Virus record (IMG/VR): IMGVR_UViG_3300044981_000194
Location: 1-34,443 of that record
DNA: 34,443 nucleotides
Direction: 5' to 3' (one strand)
Source: a virus
The notes beneath the pieces were generated by a model, which was not told the DNA's origin, did not search any database, and saw nothing but the letters and a program-made list of their open reading frames with translations. Shown here piece by piece: positions 14,706 to 34,443 of the stretch (positions within the stretch are counted from its first letter, which is position 1; each line of letters starts with the position of its first letter). Position numbers and translations under genes: made by a program.

Positions 14706-14876
14706 ATGACGAGAGATAACTTCCAGGCAGAGGAAGCCGAATGGTTTACTCAAGAAGAGCTGGACTACCATAACAGAGCCTTTAATGATTATCTGAATTT
14801 ACATAGAGTAAATCGTATGGATGAGCAGGCCGTACAGGTTTACAAAGACAAGTACTTCAAAAAGTTTATGGGTTAA
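14706..14876 (+). CDS. Small acidic protein, first gene of a plus-strand mini-operon
   Basis: A protein of 56 residues (MTRDNFQAEEAEWFTQEELD...) preceded by AAGGAG. It is helical with an acidic, aromatic-rich N-terminal half and a basic C-terminus (KDKYFKKFMG). It is first behind the strong 14644-14672 promoter and opens a run of five tiny genes. Unrecognised; early phage proteins of this size often bind host factors, but nothing specific is visible. Confidence 0.7.
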   Translation: MTRDNFQAEEAEWFTQEELDYHNRAFNDYLNLHRVNRMDEQAVQVYKDKYFKKFMG

Positions 14877-14899
14877 TAATTTAACTAAAGGAAAAAATC

Positions 14900-15127
14900 A
14901 TGAAGACTATAAACAATATAACGCTATACGATTTGATGTCTGAAGATCTCGACATATGGATAAGTAAAGACAAGGTATTTGGATTCAACATAGAAATTGA
15001 TGATGAAAATGGTGATCCTCTGATGGAAGAAGAGAATGTCCACTCTTATGCAGCAGACGCCTTCGCAGACTTTTGCAAGCGTTATTTACACAGCTATGAG
15101 AAAGCAACTAACCGAGAGGCCGCATAA
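14900..15127 (+). CDS. Hypothetical small acidic protein
   Basis: A protein of 75 residues. The middle is strongly acidic (IEIDDENGDPLMEEENVHS), followed by a helical AADAFADFCKRYLHSYEKA stretch. Its stop overlaps the next start as TAATG. AAAGGA lies upstream. The net negative charge could suit a DNA-mimic or inhibitor role, but that is only a possibility. No family recognised. Confidence 0.75.
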   Translation: MKTINNITLYDLMSEDLDIWISKDKVFGFNIEIDDENGDPLMEEENVHSYAADAFADFCKRYLHSYEKATNREAA

Positions 15128-15312
15128 TGGAAAAGCACGGAAACTACGAATACGACATTATTGTTTTTCACGGAAAATACTCCTATCTTATCATGAGCAA
15201 GGAAGTAAAAGGGAGGGTAAAAGTATATTCAAACGAATGGTTTGAAGAGAAGTCCAAAGCCTATTTTGCAGCCATTGGGCATATTCAATTACTGGAACAG
15301 GGAGTTAACTAG
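15127..15312 (+). CDS. Hypothetical small protein
   Basis: A protein of 61 residues (MEKHGNYEYDIIVFHGKYSY...), with a beta-rich N-terminal half and a helical C-terminal half (SKAYFAAIGHIQLLEQG). It overlaps the previous gene by one base, which indicates coupled translation. No family recognised. Confidence 0.72.
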   Translation: MEKHGNYEYDIIVFHGKYSYLIMSKEVKGRVKVYSNEWFEEKSKAYFAAIGHIQLLEQGVN

Positions 15313-15313
15313 C

Positions 15314-15448
15314 ATGAAGCTACCAAGATTATTAATACGAATATTGTCCTGTATGCCGTTGCGCAAGCACGACTGGATGTTTACCATCTGCAATAATCAG
15401 AAAACGGCACGCTGTAGCAAGTGCCAAAAACATAAGGTGACCGCATGA
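15314..15448 (+). CDS. Small basic protein with a zinc-ribbon-like cysteine pair
   Basis: A protein of 44 residues from the ATG at 15314, one base after the previous stop; a longer frame upstream is less likely because it overlaps that gene. It has a hydrophobic/basic N-terminus (MKLPRLLIRILSC), a His/Trp segment, and cysteines in FTICNNQKTARCSKCQKHK, the look of a single small zinc ribbon. The stop overlaps the next start as ATGA. Confidence 0.6.
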   Translation: MKLPRLLIRILSCMPLRKHDWMFTICNNQKTARCSKCQKHKVTA

Positions 15449-15621
15449 CTGGAATGGATAAAGACTATGAAGAATCTTGTTTACTGAGAAAACTTCATGG
15501 CCTGATAATGTCTGAAGAAACAGGCATCGAAAAGACCATGAAGCTCAAGGAACTAGAAGAAGAAGTTAAGTCAGAGTTAATCCGGCTTAATTTATCTTGT
15601 GACCCAAACTCAATAAAGTAG
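15445..15621 (+). CDS. Small acidic coiled-coil protein
   Basis: A protein of 58 residues. It starts inside the previous gene's stop (ATGA). The sequence is charged and helical ([20 protein letters not shown]), so it is probably a coiled coil. Its last 35 bases overlap the 3' end of the cold-shock gene on the opposite strand, so the two transcripts converge. Unrecognised. Confidence 0.62.
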
Positions 15622-15853: not shown

Positions 15854-16123
15854 CTAGACATTTTTTCCAATTCCCCTATACCTTCGCATGGGTAAATCAA
15901 AAGATTGCTTATAGAGCTCCTGAGAGCCTTCTGCGTAATTTGGCATTCCAGCCTCTACCCAGATTTTAACTGAAGTTACCAGAGAGTCGTCTGGTATCAG
16001 TCCATTAACCATATCGTGTTTATCTTCCTCACTCAATAGCCTTGTAGCAATAAGTTTTGGGCTTACTCCAAGCTTTATTCCGAGGGTGAAGAGTTTACGC
16101 TGGCATTCTTGTTTGGTTAGCAT
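15854..16123 (-). CDS. Hypothetical protein overlapping the initiator gene
   Basis: A protein of 89 residues (MLTKQECQRKLFTLGIKLGV...), with GGAG before its ATG. It overlaps the last 29 bases of the initiator gene, so it is probably coupled to it. It occupies the place of lambda P (helicase loader) but is far too short, and I see no P-loop. It is helical in the N-terminal half and basic at the end (FDLPMRRYRGIGKNV). An initiator cofactor is possible. Confidence 0.75.
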   Translation of the reverse strand: MLTKQECQRKLFTLGIKLGVSPKLIATRLLSEEDKHDMVNGLIPDDSLVTSVKIWVEAGMPNYAEGSQELYKQSFDLPMRRYRGIGKNV

Positions 16124-16991
16124 TTTTTGCGCTCCATGCTTTAAATGACAAAGGTTCTTTTCCTTGAACTGATGGTATTTTCAAATAATCACGGTCATTA
16201 AGAAACTGGCTAAAATACAGTTTGTAGTCGTACATCAGTAAATCCGAAGTTTTTTGTACTTCTGTTTTTTTTGGAGAATATTTATCACCACTATCATTTT
16301 TGCCGCCAACCATAAAAACAATGTTCTCGGATTTTAGTTTTTTAAGAAGCTTTACTGCAGCTCCGGCTCTCTGAAGCCTTGGGTAGGATTTTTCGCTGCA
16401 TTCGTCGATGTGTTTCACCACATCTTCCATAAATTCATTATCTGTTCGTGAATCTATTGTAAGCTTTTGATTCAATATGTTCTTATCGGTGGTTTCTGAG
16501 AAAATAAAACTACTACTACTGCAGTTAGTTAGTTTCTTATCTGGATTAGTATCTGGATTAGTATCTGGTATAGGTGTCACCGATCGGTGAAATTGATTTC
16601 TCCATTCGGTGAAATCCATTTCACCGTTTGGTGAAATGGACAAATAAAGGGTTTCAAGGTATTTATCCTTATTCAGGTGGGGGAAATAGTGATAAGCTTT
16701 TGGGGTGAGGGCATACCAAACTGTCCTGTCGTATTTGTTTTTATTATAGTTTCCTCTTATTACCAATCCTTCTTTTACGGCAGTGTTTATGATGCGCTCT
16801 CGTTGTCTCCTGGAAAAATAGGGGAATATGTCTCCCATGGCCTCAAGAGTGTCGTAAGTCCAGCAAAGGCCGTCGTGAATATTTTTTTTGTTAGCGAGAT
16901 TTTTGAAGGTCCAGTGATCCAGATGACCTAAAAACAAGGCAATATAAACAGAAAAATCCTTGGCAAGGTTTACATCGAATGCGTGGTTCAT
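16095..16991 (-). CDS. Replication initiator, lambda O-like winged-helix protein
   Basis: A protein of 298 residues. Residues 1-120 look like a winged-helix replication protein: MNHAFDVNLAKDFSVYIALF, then a recognition region FPYFSRRQRERIINTAVKEG and a wing LVIRGNYNKNKYDRTVWYAL. A linker follows (TPIPDTNPDTNPDKK), encoded by 12-bp tandem repeats. The C-terminal part is helical (DLLMYDYKLYFSQFLNDRDY) and may contact the helicase or its loader. The DNA encoding residues about 118-139 carries five iteron-like repeats, as the lambda O gene carries ori. The promoter of an opposing RNA starts two bases from the ATG. GGAG precedes the start. Confidence 0.75.
   Translation of the reverse strand: MNHAFDVNLAKDFSVYIALFLGHLDHWTFKNLANKKNIHDGLCWTYDTLEAMGDIFPYFSRRQRERIINTAVKEGLVIRGNYNKNKYDRTVWYALTPKAYHYFPHLNKDKYLETLYLSISPNGEMDFTEWRNQFHRSVTPIPDTNPDTNPDKKLTNCSSSSFIFSETTDKNILNQKLTIDSRTDNEFMEDVVKHIDECSEKSYPRLQRAGAAVKLLKKLKSENIVFMVGGKNDSGDKYSPKKTEVQKTSDLLMYDYKLYFSQFLNDRDYLKIPSVQGKEPLSFKAWSAKNANQTRMPA
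16539..16568. repeat. 12-bp tandem repeat inside the initiator gene
   Basis: ATCTGGATTAGT is repeated at 16539 and 16551, with a half copy at 16563. On the minus strand it encodes DTNP-type repeats in the linker. It lies next to an A/T-rich tract and beside the iteron cluster. Confidence 0.8.
16577..16637. repeat. Iteron-like cluster: candidate replication origin
   Basis: Five copies of a CGGTGA(AAT) element lie in 61 bp. There are forward copies at 16585-16593 and 16607-16615 (22 bp apart, two helical turns), a near copy TGGTGAAAT at 16629-16637, and inverse copies at 16577-16582 and 16618-16626. The first two form the perfect palindrome TCACCGATCGGTGA. The cluster lies in the middle of the initiator gene, beside A/T-rich sequence at 16480-16560, as in lambda ori. 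Confidence 0.65.
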
Positions 16992-18593: not shown

Positions 18594-18626
18594 GCAGTTA
18601 CCCCTCGTTAAGATTAATTAAAAAAT

Positions 18627-18655
18627 ATTATAAAGCAACTCTTGACTTAGAGCAA
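18627..18655 (-). promoter_or_regulatory. Promoter of the Cro-like gene (pR-like)
   Basis: On the minus strand -10 TATAAT (18632-18627), 17-base spacer, -35 TTGCTC (18655-18650). It overlaps the opposing promoter at 18642-18670, so the two should exclude each other. Confidence 0.6.
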
Positions 18656-18670
18656 GATATGACGTAATCT
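18642..18670 (+). promoter_or_regulatory. Promoter of the recombination operon (pL-like)
   Basis: -35 TTGACT (18642-18647), 17-base spacer, -10 TAATCT (18665-18670). GCAACTCTTGAC over the -35 differs by one base from GCAACACTTGAC at 14637-14648. Confidence 0.55.
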
Positions 18671-18682
18671 CAATTTACGTCA
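18660..18682. promoter_or_regulatory. Palindromic operator between the two arms
   Basis: TGACGTAA (18660-18667) and TTACGTCA (18675-18682) are perfect inverted arms around seven bases. The left arm covers part of the plus-strand -10. Size and placement fit a dimeric Cro-type repressor site. Confidence 0.65.
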
Positions 18683-18719
18683 ATACCGACGCAGACTACA
18701 TAAAGTGAAGAGGTATAAA

Positions 18720-19142
18720 ATGCAAGATTACGATCATACTCATGAGCAAGAACATTGTCTTTCTGATAATGTGCAAGAACTAAAAAAAATAAATATCAAG
18801 ATAGCGCAGCTTTCCTTGCGAAAAGAAGAGTTAACGAAAAATATAATCTGTGCCCTTGAGCATAATCACGAAGGGCAGAAATCTTATGATTATGGTTTGT
18901 GGCGAATTGAGATTAAGACGCCTTTTGTTTATTCATTGAACAAGAAACGCTATGAATCTGGTGAAATTAATTTGCCTTCCAATTTCAATCCTGTGAAAGA
19001 ATCTATATCGTATTCCATAGACAAGAGGTTGTGTGATCAATATATGACGGATGCGCCTGATGATGTACGTGATGCTCTTATAGAGTTAATTGACAAGAAA
19101 CCTGGAAAAGCTGCGGTTACTATCAAGGAGCGTATATTATGA
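18720..19142 (+). CDS. First gene of the recombination operon, unknown function
   Basis: A protein of 140 residues from the ATG at 18720, which has GAAGAGG at good distance; an in-frame start at 18705 lies upstream of that site. Residues 15-45 form a charged coiled coil (QELKKINIKIAQLSLRKEEL), followed by a beta-containing region (GLWRIEIKTPFVYSLNKKRY) and a basic C-terminus. Its position before a P-loop ATPase and SSB suggests a role in recombination, perhaps like host-nuclease inhibitors of pL operons. The stop overlaps the next start as ATGA. Confidence 0.8.
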   Translation: MQDYDHTHEQEHCLSDNVQELKKINIKIAQLSLRKEELTKNIICALEHNHEGQKSYDYGLWRIEIKTPFVYSLNKKRYESGEINLPSNFNPVKESISYSIDKRLCDQYMTDAPDDVRDALIELIDKKPGKAAVTIKERIL

Positions 19143-19804
19143 GCAATACGGTATTAATTATAGGTCAATCAGGAAGCGGTAAATCCACAGCTCTTCGTAA
19201 TCTTGATCCAAAAACTACATTCATAATTAATGTTCTGGATAAACCACTTCCTTTTCGTTCCTTCAAGAAAAATTATCATGCTTTCACTAAAGAAAATAAA
19301 ACCGGAAATTATTACACGACCAATGATTGGGCTTTGGTAGTGCGCTGCATAGAAATGGTAAATAAGGAGAGAGAAGAAATAACTACGCTTGTTATCGATG
19401 ACTGGCAGTATATTTTGGCTTATGAGTTCATGAGGCGAGTATCTGAAAAAGGTTTTGACAAATTTTCGGAATTGGCTAATCACGGATGGAGTACCATAAA
19501 TTCTTGTCTTGGAACGAGACCTTCCCTGACTAACTTTATTTTGGCTCACAGTGATGTAGATAGTACAGGTAGATCCAAGTGCAAAACCATAGGAAAGATG
19601 CTGGATGAGAAAATTACCATAGAAGGGTTGTTTACTACTGTGTTGCATTCCCGGGTTGTAGATGGCCAATATCTTTTTCAAACTCAGTATGATGGAGAGT
19701 ATCTGGCAAAGTCACCAATGGGGATGTTTGAAGAGTTTCTTATACCAAACGATTTGTTAACGGTGAAAGAGGCGGTTGAAAATTACTTTAACGATGAGGA
19801 ATAA
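19139..19804 (+). CDS. P-loop ATPase, likely recombination (Sak4/RecA-like AAA)
   Basis: A protein of 221 residues. Walker A is GQSGSGKST at residues 9-17; a hydrophobic Walker B strand ITTLVIDDWQYILAYEF lies near residue 85-100. The size and the layout (short N-terminus, early Walker A, neighbouring SSB) fit phage AAA_24/Sak4-like ATPases, which promote single-strand annealing or strand exchange with a phage SSB. AAGGAG precedes the ATG, which overlaps the previous stop. A DNA-packaging or helicase role is less likely. Confidence 0.82.
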   Translation: MSNTVLIIGQSGSGKSTALRNLDPKTTFIINVLDKPLPFRSFKKNYHAFTKENKTGNYYTTNDWALVVRCIEMVNKEREEITTLVIDDWQYILAYEFMRRVSEKGFDKFSELANHGWSTINSCLGTRPSLTNFILAHSDVDSTGRSKCKTIGKMLDEKITIEGLFTTVLHSRVVDGQYLFQTQYDGEYLAKSPMGMFEEFLIPNDLLTVKEAVENYFNDEE

Positions 19805-19809
19805 ATAAA

Positions 19810-20400
19810 ATGAGCGATTTTTGGATAAGTGAATTAGGAGAAGTAACGGGTTCTGCTTCGGATGCATTTGCCAGGACATTCACGCAAATACCGGATGGGA
19901 CAATGGCTTTGGCTAGAATTGAGGCATTCGTTAACTCTGAGTATAACGGAAATAAATTTTTACTTATCAATTGGATTCTTACAGAAGGCGAATTTAAAGG
20001 CTCTAAAGTAGAGCAGAAGCTTAAAGTGTTTGGAGATCCCAGTGCTAAAGACTCAGCTAAAGCACGTCACCGGGCCCTTAATATGCTAAAGCTTATTTAT
20101 CAGCTGTATAACGTCAAGCCCAAGCATGCTGGAGATCCAACGGACCAGGATTTATCTGTGTTTAATTCCAAGATTGCAGGTATTAAAATAAGAGAAACAG
20201 AGCCAAATGAACAAGGTCGACAATACAACTGGGTAGCTGAAATTCATTCAGCCAAAGATTTTAAATGTGAGACTGGTGTAAGCCTTGTTGTTACTCATAA
20301 TAATTTTATGAATAGCCCCCAAGGGAATCTGGATAGCGCCTTTAGTAGACAAGCACAACTGGCATTAGAGCCAAGTTTGTCAGACGACATACCATTTTAA
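19810..20400 (+). CDS. SSB-like single-stranded DNA-binding protein
   Basis: A protein of 196 residues. The body is OB-fold-like (beta strands around ARIEAFVNSEYNGNKFLLIN and GVSLVVTHNNF). The C-terminus ends SLSDDIPF, the acidic tail with terminal Pro-Phe by which SSBs recruit partners; seeing it exactly at the end is strong support. It lies five bases after the P-loop ATPase gene, a common phage pairing. It protects single-stranded DNA in replication and annealing. Confidence 0.85.
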   Translation: MSDFWISELGEVTGSASDAFARTFTQIPDGTMALARIEAFVNSEYNGNKFLLINWILTEGEFKGSKVEQKLKVFGDPSAKDSAKARHRALNMLKLIYQLYNVKPKHAGDPTDQDLSVFNSKIAGIKIRETEPNEQGRQYNWVAEIHSAKDFKCETGVSLVVTHNNFMNSPQGNLDSAFSRQAQLALEPSLSDDIPF

Positions 20401-20494: not shown

Positions 20495-20650
20495 ATGATT
20501 AATACTTTTGATGATTCTAGAATCCGTGAATTAAAGGAATTATTTCCGAATGCAAGAGAATGCAAGATAAGGGAAATGGCTCAATATATATGGGAAATAA
20601 TTCCAAGGATTTATAGTGAAGCTGCTAATGACAAAAAATACATTAACTAA
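20495..20650 (+). CDS. Hypothetical small protein
   Basis: A protein of 51 residues from the ATG at 20495, which has TAGGGG upstream; the longer frame from 20453 lacks a site. It is helical and charged (DDSRIRELKELFPNARECKI). Its end overlaps the next gene by 35 bases. No family recognised. Confidence 0.65.
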   Translation: MINTFDDSRIRELKELFPNARECKIREMAQYIWEIIPRIYSEAANDKKYIN

Positions 20651-21278
20651 AATAATTGAAGATCATCAGTCTACTATACAAGATGATGTTAGGGATTACA
20701 TAGGAGCCAGCAGCATTGGCTCCGATTGTTTAAGACAAATTTGGTATAAATATAAAGGAGTAAGTGAAGAAGCGGTTCCTGCAAAAACACGCAGGACTTG
20801 GGCTATTGGTAAGCGCCTTGAGGGATTGGTTATTGAATGGCTTATGGATTGCGGGGTGTTGATTGATTTAGATCCGCAAACGTATCGTGCAAGAAACGTG
20901 CCAATTTTTCAGGGTCACTTCGACGGAATCATATTTTTAGGTAAATTAAAGGCTATTTTAGAGGTAAAAACGGCCAAAGATGCCAGCTTTAAGATATTTG
21001 TTAAAAAGGGTTTGAAGGTTTGGAATCCACAATATTACGCGCAAGTGCAGTCGTATATGGGCATGAGCGGGATAAATAGTACATATATACTTGTACTAAA
21101 TAAGGATAATAGTGATCTTTCCGATGAATTAGTGACTTTTGATGCAGAATTTTACGAAAAGCTCGAGCAAAAAGCGCAAATGATATCTAACGCTGTCGTT
21201 GAACCCCCGCGCGTACACGGTTCACCGCTCTGGTATCAATGCAAGATGTGTAATTTTAACAAAGTTTGCCATAAATAA
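20616..21278 (+). CDS. Cas4/RecB-like PD-(D/E)XK exonuclease
   Basis: A protein of 220 residues from a GTG at 20616; AAGGA lies six bases before it, whereas the next ATG (20628) is too far from that site. Catalytic residues are D103 (QGHFDGI), E116 and K118 (ILEVKTA), followed by QVQ at 143-145 (YYAQVQSYM). One cysteine at 38 (GSDCLRQ) and three at the C-terminus (CKMCNFNKVC) match the Cas4/AddB-type iron-sulphur cluster. Such phage enzymes make single-stranded ends for annealing recombination, in line with the neighbouring ATPase and SSB. There is no CRISPR array, so an adaptation role is unlikely. Confidence 0.87.
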   Translation: MKLLMTKNTLTKIIEDHQSTIQDDVRDYIGASSIGSDCLRQIWYKYKGVSEEAVPAKTRRTWAIGKRLEGLVIEWLMDCGVLIDLDPQTYRARNVPIFQGHFDGIIFLGKLKAILEVKTAKDASFKIFVKKGLKVWNPQYYAQVQSYMGMSGINSTYILVLNKDNSDLSDELVTFDAEFYEKLEQKAQMISNAVVEPPRVHGSPLWYQCKMCNFNKVCHK

Positions 21279-32917: not shown

Positions 32918-32946
32918 ATTATAGTAGCACGTTATTTATTACTCAA
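32918..32946 (-). promoter_or_regulatory. Consensus promoter of the fibre/lysis operon
   Basis: On the minus strand -35 TTGAGT (32946-32941), 17-base spacer, perfect -10 TATAAT (32923-32918). The -35 overlaps the stop of the winged-helix gene. It would transcribe all genes to 25 kb. Confidence 0.72.
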
Positions 32947-33460
32947 ATAGATAGGCATCCTCTTTAGAGATTTTAATTTCAGGATTTAATCTATACCAAT
33001 TAATTTGTTGAATTTCAGATTGAGAGAAAACACCGGTTTCTTTATGTTTTAAAGAAGAAGATGTTTTCTTGTATCCGGAATCCGGACTAGTTGGAGAAAA
33101 CTCCTCCGGAATACGGACTAGAGAACTATTTTTATTCAGTTCATTATTTATTCTATTCAGGACTAGTGTGCAAATTAGTTTCAGTATTTTTCCTTTCTGG
33201 AATTTAACTCTTGATGTAAAACCTACGCGTTCGATAATCCTTAATTTTTCCAAGGTGTTTAGGCATTCGTAAATAGGGCTTTGTGAATACCCTGTATTTG
33301 CTGAAAGAGATTCAATTGAATATGGAAATGGGTTGTCATTACGGATGAGAAATCCTAGCAACCTATAGAATATAATTTTTTCGCGTCTTTTGAGTTTTAA
33401 TCGATTGCAAGCCAAGGAATATACTTGAGAATTAAATGTTTTGGCTTTTTTAATGCTCAT
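32939..33460 (-). CDS. Second winged-helix protein, replication or plasmid-Rep type
   Basis: A protein of 173 residues. Residues 20-85 form a winged helix (LKRREKIIFYRLLGFLIRND, then SIESLSANTGYSQSPIYECL and EKLRIIERVG), of the HTH_36 kind seen in phage O-like and plasmid Rep N-termini. The C-terminal half is basic then polar, with no further domain. The gene is isolated upstream of the fibre operon. An opposing extended -10 promoter begins four bases from its ATG, and its own promoter is at 33559-33587, so its leader should be covered by an antisense RNA. It could be an initiator paralogue or a late regulator. Confidence 0.72.
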   Translation of the reverse strand: MSIKKAKTFNSQVYSLACNRLKLKRREKIIFYRLLGFLIRNDNPFPYSIESLSANTGYSQSPIYECLNTLEKLRIIERVGFTSRVKFQKGKILKLICTLVLNRINNELNKNSSLVRIPEEFSPTSPDSGYKKTSSSLKHKETGVFSQSEIQQINWYRLNPEIKISKEDAYLFE

Positions 33461-33470
33461 TTGCTATACT
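33441..33470 (+). promoter_or_regulatory. Promoter of the oop-like antisense RNA
   Basis: -35 TTGGCT (33441-33446), 18-base spacer, extended -10 TTGC-TATACT (core 33465-33470). It faces away from the winged-helix gene that starts at 33460. Confidence 0.65.
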
Positions 33471-33476
33471 GCCCTT

Positions 33477-33558
33477 GTTGTTCGTGAAGGTTCAACATTG
33501 CGTGATTGTAATTAGAAGCCGAACGGGTTGACGCCCATATGTTCGGCTTTGTTTTTTC
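33477..33558 (+). ncRNA. ~80-nt antisense RNA with intrinsic terminator (oop-like)
   Basis: From the predicted start near 33477 the RNA has a first hairpin with GTTG/CAAC arms around 33478-33496, then a terminator: AAGCCGAAC (33516-33524) with GTTCGGCTT (33541-33549), 9 bp, and TGTTTTTTC. The length is close to lambda oop (77 nt). It is complementary to the leader of the winged-helix mRNA. Confidence 0.6.
33516..33558 (+). terminator. Rho-independent terminator of the small RNA
   Basis: Perfect 9-bp stem with a 16-base loop that itself holds GGG/CCC, followed by seven U in nine positions. Confidence 0.8.
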
Positions 33559-34169: not shown

Positions 34170-34443
34170 TCAATCTCCATGGGCTTGGATTCTTGTTGTC
34201 CAGCAGCCTGTGATATTCCTTTGCTTAATAAAAGTCCGAATGCAACTGCTTTCATTTGTTTATTTGGAATGCTATTTATTTTATCCAGTTGTTTGGCCCA
34301 GTCTTTGCTAGTAATAAATTCAATAGCTGCTTTGTCGTTTCCTCCTCGAGTAAAGGCATGCTCTAGCATGTTCTTCAGAAAATCTCCTTCATTACGAGCC
34401 ATATTCATGCCACGCTCTTCAGTGCCTTTTGCGGTTTTAATAG
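34148..34443 (-). CDS. Ejection protein, gp16-like, C-terminal part
   Basis: Right-edge portion of the 597-residue gene that begins at 1625. Bases 34317-34443 repeat bases 1-127, and the unique C-terminal part is 34316-34148. The C-terminus contains a helical segment with a QMKAVAFGLLLSKGISQAAG stretch and ends in a short polar tail before a TAA stop. Treated alone it would look like an 86-residue hypothetical gene, which would be an artefact of the linear cut. Confidence 0.85.
   Translation of the reverse strand, partial: IKTAKGTEERGMNMARNEGDFLKNMLEHAFTRGGNDKAAIEFITSKDWAKQLDKINSIPNKQMKAVAFGLLLSKGISQAAGQQESKPMEIELTGGHR
34317..34443. repeat. Terminal direct repeat, right copy
   Basis: Second copy of the 127-bp terminal identity. 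Joining base 34316 to base 1 restores one uninterrupted reading frame on the minus strand, which is independent support for circularity. Confidence 0.95.

Follow-up and report, generated by a model that had tools for sequence, protein, structure and literature searches.

The window analysed here, that is, the whole stretch of 34,443 nucleotides of an IMG/VR virus record, closes on itself, its first and last 127 bases (1–127 and 34317–34443) being identical, and in this respect the complete circle of the preliminary description stands. The length of this end repeat, and likewise that of the 55-base repeat in the bacterial contig discussed below, matches the word lengths commonly used by assemblers, and because of this agreement in size the 127 bases probably reflect a circular assembly graph and not true terminal repeats. 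The window matches P22-like virion families (portal, E = 7.9e-87; major head protein, 2.1e-36; Hc3 head closure, 6.4e-19), a tRNA search of it found none, and the Rfam covariance models gave 0 matches at gathering score; in a relaxed Rfam search the best match was a snoRNA with 23.3 of 47 bits, under threshold.

Two arms of genes, one comprising cro and replication functions and the other recombination functions, diverge from a short intergenic region that has no cI within it (Table 1). By sequence match, the 62-aa gene that heads the leftward arm is a P22-type Cro: it matches PHROG 409 (transcriptional regulator) with E = 9.4e-9; as a single sequence it reaches Pfam P22_Cro with E = 3.9e-6 and 27.0 bits, under the cut-off of 30.2; and a profile of 37 of its relatives matches the solved structures of P22 Cro (1rzs, 9.1e-9) and N15 Cro (2hin, 1.7e-5). 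Behind it lie small genes without assigned function and the replication initiation gene. On the right arm, a helicase gene is found downstream of the g7–Sak4–SSB–exonuclease series. DUF7173 is matched by 13 of the 38 members of the g7 family at E ≤ 0.05, the g7 of the window not being among them; against PDB sequences this protein found no match (best E 0.1), and its predicted fold (pLDDT 90.1) retrieved nothing at E ≤ 0.001 with Foldseek. The PHROG, Pfam and PDB profile matches thus agree with the divergence of a Cro-like gene and a recombination operon that had been noted before. Elsewhere, the stretch that separates the terminase from the replication arm holds a series of small overlapping ORFs (14706–15621, plus strand), none with a PHROG match, which is possibly an accessory region, and a terminator-like stem of 8 pairs (20703–20723, plus strand) lies within the exonuclease reading frame.

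Table 1. Position of genes and of observed or predicted elements in the window (sites of promoters, operators and pseudoknot are predictions).
Feature	Coordinates	Strand	Remarks
Replication initiation protein, cro arm	16095–16991	-	PHROG 11233, E 7.9e-21
cro, P22/N15-type Cro-like repressor, 62 aa	18405–18593	-	First gene of leftward arm
Divergent intergenic switch region	18594–18719		126 bp, without any gene
Left promoter -10, TATAAT	18627–18632	-	Read from sequence, relatives aligned
Predicted Cro operator array, CAA-N3-TTG-N8-CAA-N3-(A)TG	18636–18661		Spans both -35 boxes
Right promoter -35, TTGACT	18642–18647	+	Read from sequence; relatives TTGACA/TTGCTA
Left promoter -35, TTGCTC	18650–18655	-	17 nt from -10; inferred +1 ~18620
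Palindrome TGACGTAA-N7-TTACGTCA	18660–18682		Overlaps right -10 and leader hairpin
Right promoter -10, TAATCT	18665–18670	+	3/6 consensus match; 17-nt spacer; inferred +1 ~18677
H1 hairpin	18678–18691	+	CGTC 18678–18681, loop AATACC 18682–18687, GACG 18688–18691
H2, weak embedded hairpin	18695–18706	+	ACT 18695–18697 / AGT 18704–18706
GGTAT, g7 Shine-Dalgarno region	18712–18716	+	Complements H1 loop ATACC 18683–18687; candidate pseudoknot stem 2
g7, DUF7173-like, first gene of recombination operon	18720–19142	+	PHROG 2480, E 2.1e-4 (weak)
Sak4-like ssDNA annealing ATPase	19139–19804	+	PHROG 2872, E 5.3e-74
Single-strand DNA binding protein (SSB)	19810–20400	+	PHROG 9002, E 1e-13
Cas4-domain exonuclease	20616–21278	+	PHROG 1990, E 1e-53

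This layout is common to the relatives, where cro stands opposite g7–sak4 across 41 distinct intergenic regions; the relatives compared are all uncultured, and the evidence drawn from them is sequence computation. Another group of loci (L003, L006, L008, L009 and L010) carries the same Cro, but its opposite operon opens with another gene, and its intergenic region is longer and contains two separate promoter/operator sets. When the Cro profile was run against 84,980 bacterial species genomes it found one locus, on contig 39 of the single-cell genome BBSC-SA01, a complete-looking contig of 36,484 bases (L185–L188) whose ends share 55 identical bases and whose portal has about 70% identity to that of the window. 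The source paper of this genome classes the cell as Legionellales, which is a host lead for a clade whose g7 has no relative among 50,697 phage records (two queries, E ≤ 0.01). Thus, the search of host genomes for integrated or plasmid copies, proposed in the preliminary description, yielded one separate contig and no integrated copy: this single bacterial relative is a contig of its own, not integrated in the assembly, and lytic infection, carriage in a plasmid-like form or a virion attached to the cell would each present the same picture.

The lack of an integrase and of a CI repressor holds at the level of profiles, and is supported by searches of different scope. The integrase family PF00589 was found in 0 of 47 records, the window included, while the control gave its signal in 14 of 14 genomes; over 29 of these 47 records, the S24 repressor and the resolvase families were each found in none, and HTH_3 exceeded its cut-off in none, with sub-threshold matches in 5. 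A Pfam scan of 52 ORFs of the window returned Cro, weak HTH-type matches and one weak mannosyltransferase match, and neither an integrase nor a CI. Both absences, which had been claimed from the gene-less 126 bp between the arms and from the circle as a whole, are thereby upheld, and the profile search among the small genes, named as the way in which a homologue of either could come to light, found none; a repressor of unrecognised type is nevertheless conceivable. As for lineage, the closest Cro of an isolate is that of Vibrio phage Vb_VaM_Valp1 (L233), with 36.8% identity and E = 2e-3, and because Valp1 carries an S24 repressor (9.2e-17), together with an annotated protelomerase and a CII-like protein, this Cro lineage is one that is also found in temperate phages of the plasmid type.

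Within the intergenic region, the alignment of the relatives predicts two promoters that point away from each other, their -35 boxes being interleaved. The transcripts would diverge because the boxes of the right promoter run from 18642–18647 to 18665–18670 and those of the left one from 18655–18650 to 18632–18627, and the face-to-face arrangement formerly attributed to them is not what is seen across the relatives. A generic promoter scan gave no excess (8 matches vs 12.5 in shuffled sequence) and does not list the proposed boxes, its nearest match being TTGACG-18-TATCTT on the minus strand at 18683–18654. A conserved TTG-N8-CAA joins the -35 cores of both promoters in inverted order, its CAA side being the left -35; it occurs in 34 of 59 distinct regions vs 1.0 expected from shuffles that, like those used for H2 below, preserve letters only and not dinucleotides, and in 17 of the 59 a further CAA and TTG flank it at equal distances on both sides. 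In the copy of the window the last TTG reads ATG. These CAA-Nk-TTG repeats over both -35 boxes are likely, as putative sites, to be those of Cro. The perfect palindrome TGACGTAA-N7-TTACGTCA, previously put forward as the operator, is indeed present at 18660–18682, but its role as an operator did not hold, since arms of at least 7 bp are found in only 3 of the 59 distinct regions, the window being one of the 59; moreover, it is at chance level, with 8 distinct 8-bp inverted repeats of its kind in the window against a shuffled mean of 5.9 (range 2–9). The palindrome shares bases of its left half with the right -10, and its right arm doubles as the 5′ arm of the conserved leader hairpin.

The most conserved element is ACGTCAATACCGACG, which begins close to the inferred start of the recombination transcript (about +1) and contains the hairpin H1. 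The full set of 59 leaders comprises 41 placed by Cro/g7 homology and 18 picked out for matching H1 exactly, and because of this selection the frequency of H1 is given only for the 41 and for a separate g7 scan: it is intact in 40 of the 41, whose start was located with a motif list drawn up after reading them, and in 40 of 42 in the g7 scan, the misses being L195 (one broken stem base) and L221 (start mis-set), bearing in mind that the two sets have contigs in common. In a scan with the exact H1 15-mer, loci with cro or g7 nearby carry the motif at the promoter, while those without them resemble chance matches in coding sequence. H1 persists even at loci whose Cro and g7 retain an identity of only about 30% (e.g., L154, L156, L173). 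A model of the leader (R1) matches in 32 of 47 records, with one strong copy apiece in 31; the match in the L063 record, inside the sak4 reading frame, and a weaker second match in the L046 record (19.6 bits) were taken as chance. The model was absent from all four records that have cro, no g7 and a different recombination operon (G002, G005, G007, G008), and therefore the leader travels with g7; it did not match L003, L006, L009 or L010 either, L008 being outside that search. Searched without a filter, the window yields no second copy, the next match being at 33449–33487 (11.9 bits, E = 0.26). This weak match lies at the start of a minus-strand gene (32939–33460), distant from the switch, whose protein has weak replication-initiator/DnaD-like PHROG matches.

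The H1 stem is a conserved and covarying RNA element, so far unannotated. Over 41 distinct rows 97.0% of its cells are paired, the third pair appearing as UA, CG, GC or UG and having changed at least 5 times on the g7 tree; the covariation score is 0.133 vs 0.070 for shuffled alignments, a value that 0 of 500 shuffles reach. RNAalifold recovers only three H1 pairs, at -0.76 kcal/mol. The loop reads AATACC in 41 of the 58 leaders with an intact stem, a set of which 18 were picked by exact match, and it may resemble the boxB of phage 21. H2, a hairpin of 3–5 bp adjoining the Shine-Dalgarno (SD) sequence, occurs in 40 of the 42 distinct segments, where shuffling gives a mean of 9.4, and alone in the window it amounts to -0.1 kcal/mol. 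As for the antisense RNAs that had been imagined to take part in the decision, no evidence for them was found; the candidate site CGGTATTG, complementary to the H1 loop and its closing pair, is absent from the plus strand.

There is complementarity between the H1 loop AAUACC and the GGUAU(U) of the g7 SD, and this SD is itself unusual: of the g7 starts, restricted to the 18 distinct ones at loci matched from residue 1 onward, 16 have GGTA, vs 14 of the 177 starts in a control set made up of cro, sak4, ssb, hel and p57, from which p74, p110, p74b and rep (GGTA in 0 of 13) were left out. A loop with TACC goes together with an SD with GGTA in 26 of 27 leaders, against 8 of 14 for other loops (p 0.004, kinship uncorrected), one of the positives, L043, being scored as such owing to a GGTA upstream of its SD. 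When the loops were permuted among the SDs, only 2 of 1000 permutations reached the observed sum of pairing, and among the 21 variant loops the advantage of the own SD was weak (68 of 1000); in both the pairing and the permutation tests some start codons are mis-set, and thus certain SD windows are shortened. There are examples in which loop and SD vary together, UCCU/AGGA in L043 and L064 and AACC/GGUU in L061, and there are leaders in which good pairing is missing (L012, L031, L039, L050, L053, L055). In the minimum-energy nested folds of the 59 leaders, the loop–SD pairing appears in 28 and H1 in 31; since each helix uses different bases, the two could coexist as an H-type pseudoknot. On the other hand, in the nested ensemble the SD is paired less than with a dinucleotide-shuffled upstream sequence (0.57 vs 0.69), the real value being above the mean of the leader's own shuffles for 18 of the 54 leaders (Wilcoxon p 0.999 for “greater”; L134 and L168 dropped, sequence duplicates merged). 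This low value is partly to be expected if H1 competes with the loop–SD pairing, because the model forbids pseudoknots; still, as this control argues against masking of the SD beyond composition, the pseudoknot that the sequences suggest, gating the translation of g7, is likely yet unproven.

From all of the above we infer promoter and operator function, binding by Cro, a pseudoknot and translational control, in an arrangement that would operate as follows. The interleaving of the -35 boxes would make the occupancy of the two divergent early promoters mutually exclusive; Cro, as the first product of the left arm, would bind the CAA-Nk-TTG repeats over both boxes and repress both arms once the replication proteins and the recombinases had built up, so that the circuit would be one of negative feedback and not a decision between lysis and lysogeny. 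The recombination transcript would open with a structured leader of 43 nt that has H1 at its extreme 5′ end, and the loop of H1 would pair with the SD of g7 to form an H-type pseudoknot in whose long loop H2 would be embedded. In other words, the leader would be a second brake, at the level of translation, on the g7–Sak4–SSB–exonuclease operon, perhaps released or reinforced, if a guess be allowed, by a nucleic-acid-binding product of the operon itself. On balance we lean towards this whole, Cro feedback without CI together with a pseudoknot leader, and with it towards a non-integrating podovirus of a virulent type or at least one without CI. More tentative, plausible though somewhat short of probable, is the wider proposal of a phage RNA switch not described so far: a 5′-terminal pseudoknot leader of about 43 nt, with the SD in stem 2, which would control the DUF7173–Sak4–SSB–exonuclease operon autogenously in place of a CI circuit, throughout a wide clade of uncultured podoviruses of which at least one is linked to Legionellales.

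Other explanations of the leader have to account for the same features. Hairpins at the 5′ end that stabilise mRNAs are known, for example in ompA, and H1, which starts at the inferred +1 and has a covarying stem, could be one of these, protecting against mRNA decay, with its complementarity to the SD being incidental; the nested folding, in which no masking of the SD beyond composition is seen, would agree with this, but neither the strong conservation of the AATACC loop (41 of 58 intact-stem leaders) nor the difference between the g7 SD and those of other genes would be expected, so that we regard it as unlikely. That the leader acts on RNA polymerase as an antiterminator of the put type, and not on translation, is unlikely: H1 and H2 are placed like the two stem-loops that the accessible part of the HK022 literature describes just past PL, and there is the terminator-like site within the operon at 20703–20723, but the putRNA is said there to have about 70 nt and a second copy on the PR transcript, as against about 30 nt in a single copy here, and the GGTA of the SD would be left unexplained. 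It is very unlikely, finally, that H1 is a DNA dyad serving at +1 as the operator of a second regulator; every hairpin is also a dyad in DNA, and H1 does sit at a promoter, but its conserved loop is strand-asymmetric, its stem varies in length (CGC/GCG) and passes through U-G wobble states, and it is not repeated at other promoters of the window.

A separate matter is the way of life of the phage, to which we would give a small but real chance of being temperate, its prophage being plasmid-like and its repressor of a type that goes unrecognised. The sole relative among the bacterial genomes is the single-cell contig that stands by itself and has identical ends of 55 bp; such a state would account for it, as would an ordinary infection of the lytic kind or a virion attached to the cell, and this relative was found in only 1 of 84,980 genomes. 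Likewise, Valp1, the isolate whose Cro is nearest, has a protelomerase in its annotation, and the published account of VvAW1, a phage alike in layout, speaks, in the part available, of turbid plaques and a suggested plasmid lysogeny; against these parallels stand the absence of S24, resolvase, integrase and over-cut-off HTH_3 from the records searched and the 52 ORFs of the window without a relevant Pfam match.

If the whole were true, a leader placed before the recombination operon in dozens of uncultured phages would offer a compact and testable model for the way in which phages limit the dosage of their recombinases, and the lambdoid early layout would be shown to run without CI; and if only H1 were real, it would still be a strongly conserved RNA element that has gone unannotated.

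In lambda, the arm of cro and replication and the arm of recombination are transcribed apart, and the same divergence, proper to the immunity region of lambda and P22, is seen in the window; in contrast to those phages, there is no cI, rex or integrase, and the predicted promoters abut, with their -35 boxes interleaved. Valp1, N15-like by its annotated protelomerase, has the closest isolate Cro and differs from the window in possessing the S24 repressor, the CII-like protein and the protelomerase itself. A similar layout is that of Vibrio phage VvAW1 and Thalassomonas phage BA3, in which, as in the window, a small HTH gene heads the arm opposite the recombination arm, the virion genes are P22-like and neither an integrase nor a cI is annotated; in BA3 the HTH_26 gene is directly divergent from a RecE/Erf operon, and in VvAW1, according to the portion of its description available, the HTH gene stands at the point of divergence, the authors noted that an integrase was missing, and they suggested plasmid lysogeny on account of turbid plaques. 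Because of these two phages, a divergence without CI and integrase is not new. Their regulators belong, however, to HTH_26 (E = 2e-7 and 6.8e-9), unlike the P22-type Cro of the window, and the R1 leader model found no match at the VvAW1 locus.

The new part is the leader RNA, which merits follow-up, and in the accessible portions of the literature on Sak4-leader pseudoknots and on phage autoregulation by pseudoknots no description matches it. The preQ1 riboswitches, in the available extracts, are also compact pseudoknots that involve the SD, but the leader of the window has no Rfam match and no metabolic gene downstream. In HK022, putL follows closely on PL and forms two stem-loops, the putRNA being about 70 nt long with a copy, putR, on PR (PMC9378689, in the part accessible), whereas the leader of the window has about 30 nt, is single, and carries after its inferred +1 two hairpins of which H2 is very weak. 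In T4 and RB69, gene 32 has a 5′-terminal pseudoknot on the mRNA of a ssDNA-binding protein, which in T4 precedes the ribosome binding site and lies about 67 nt ahead of the start codon, as far as the consulted portions of those reports go; it differs from the leader of the window in that here the SD itself would be one strand of the candidate stem 2. As far as these partial sources allow, T4 gene 32 is the closest functional parallel of the leader, and HK022 putL the closest positional one.
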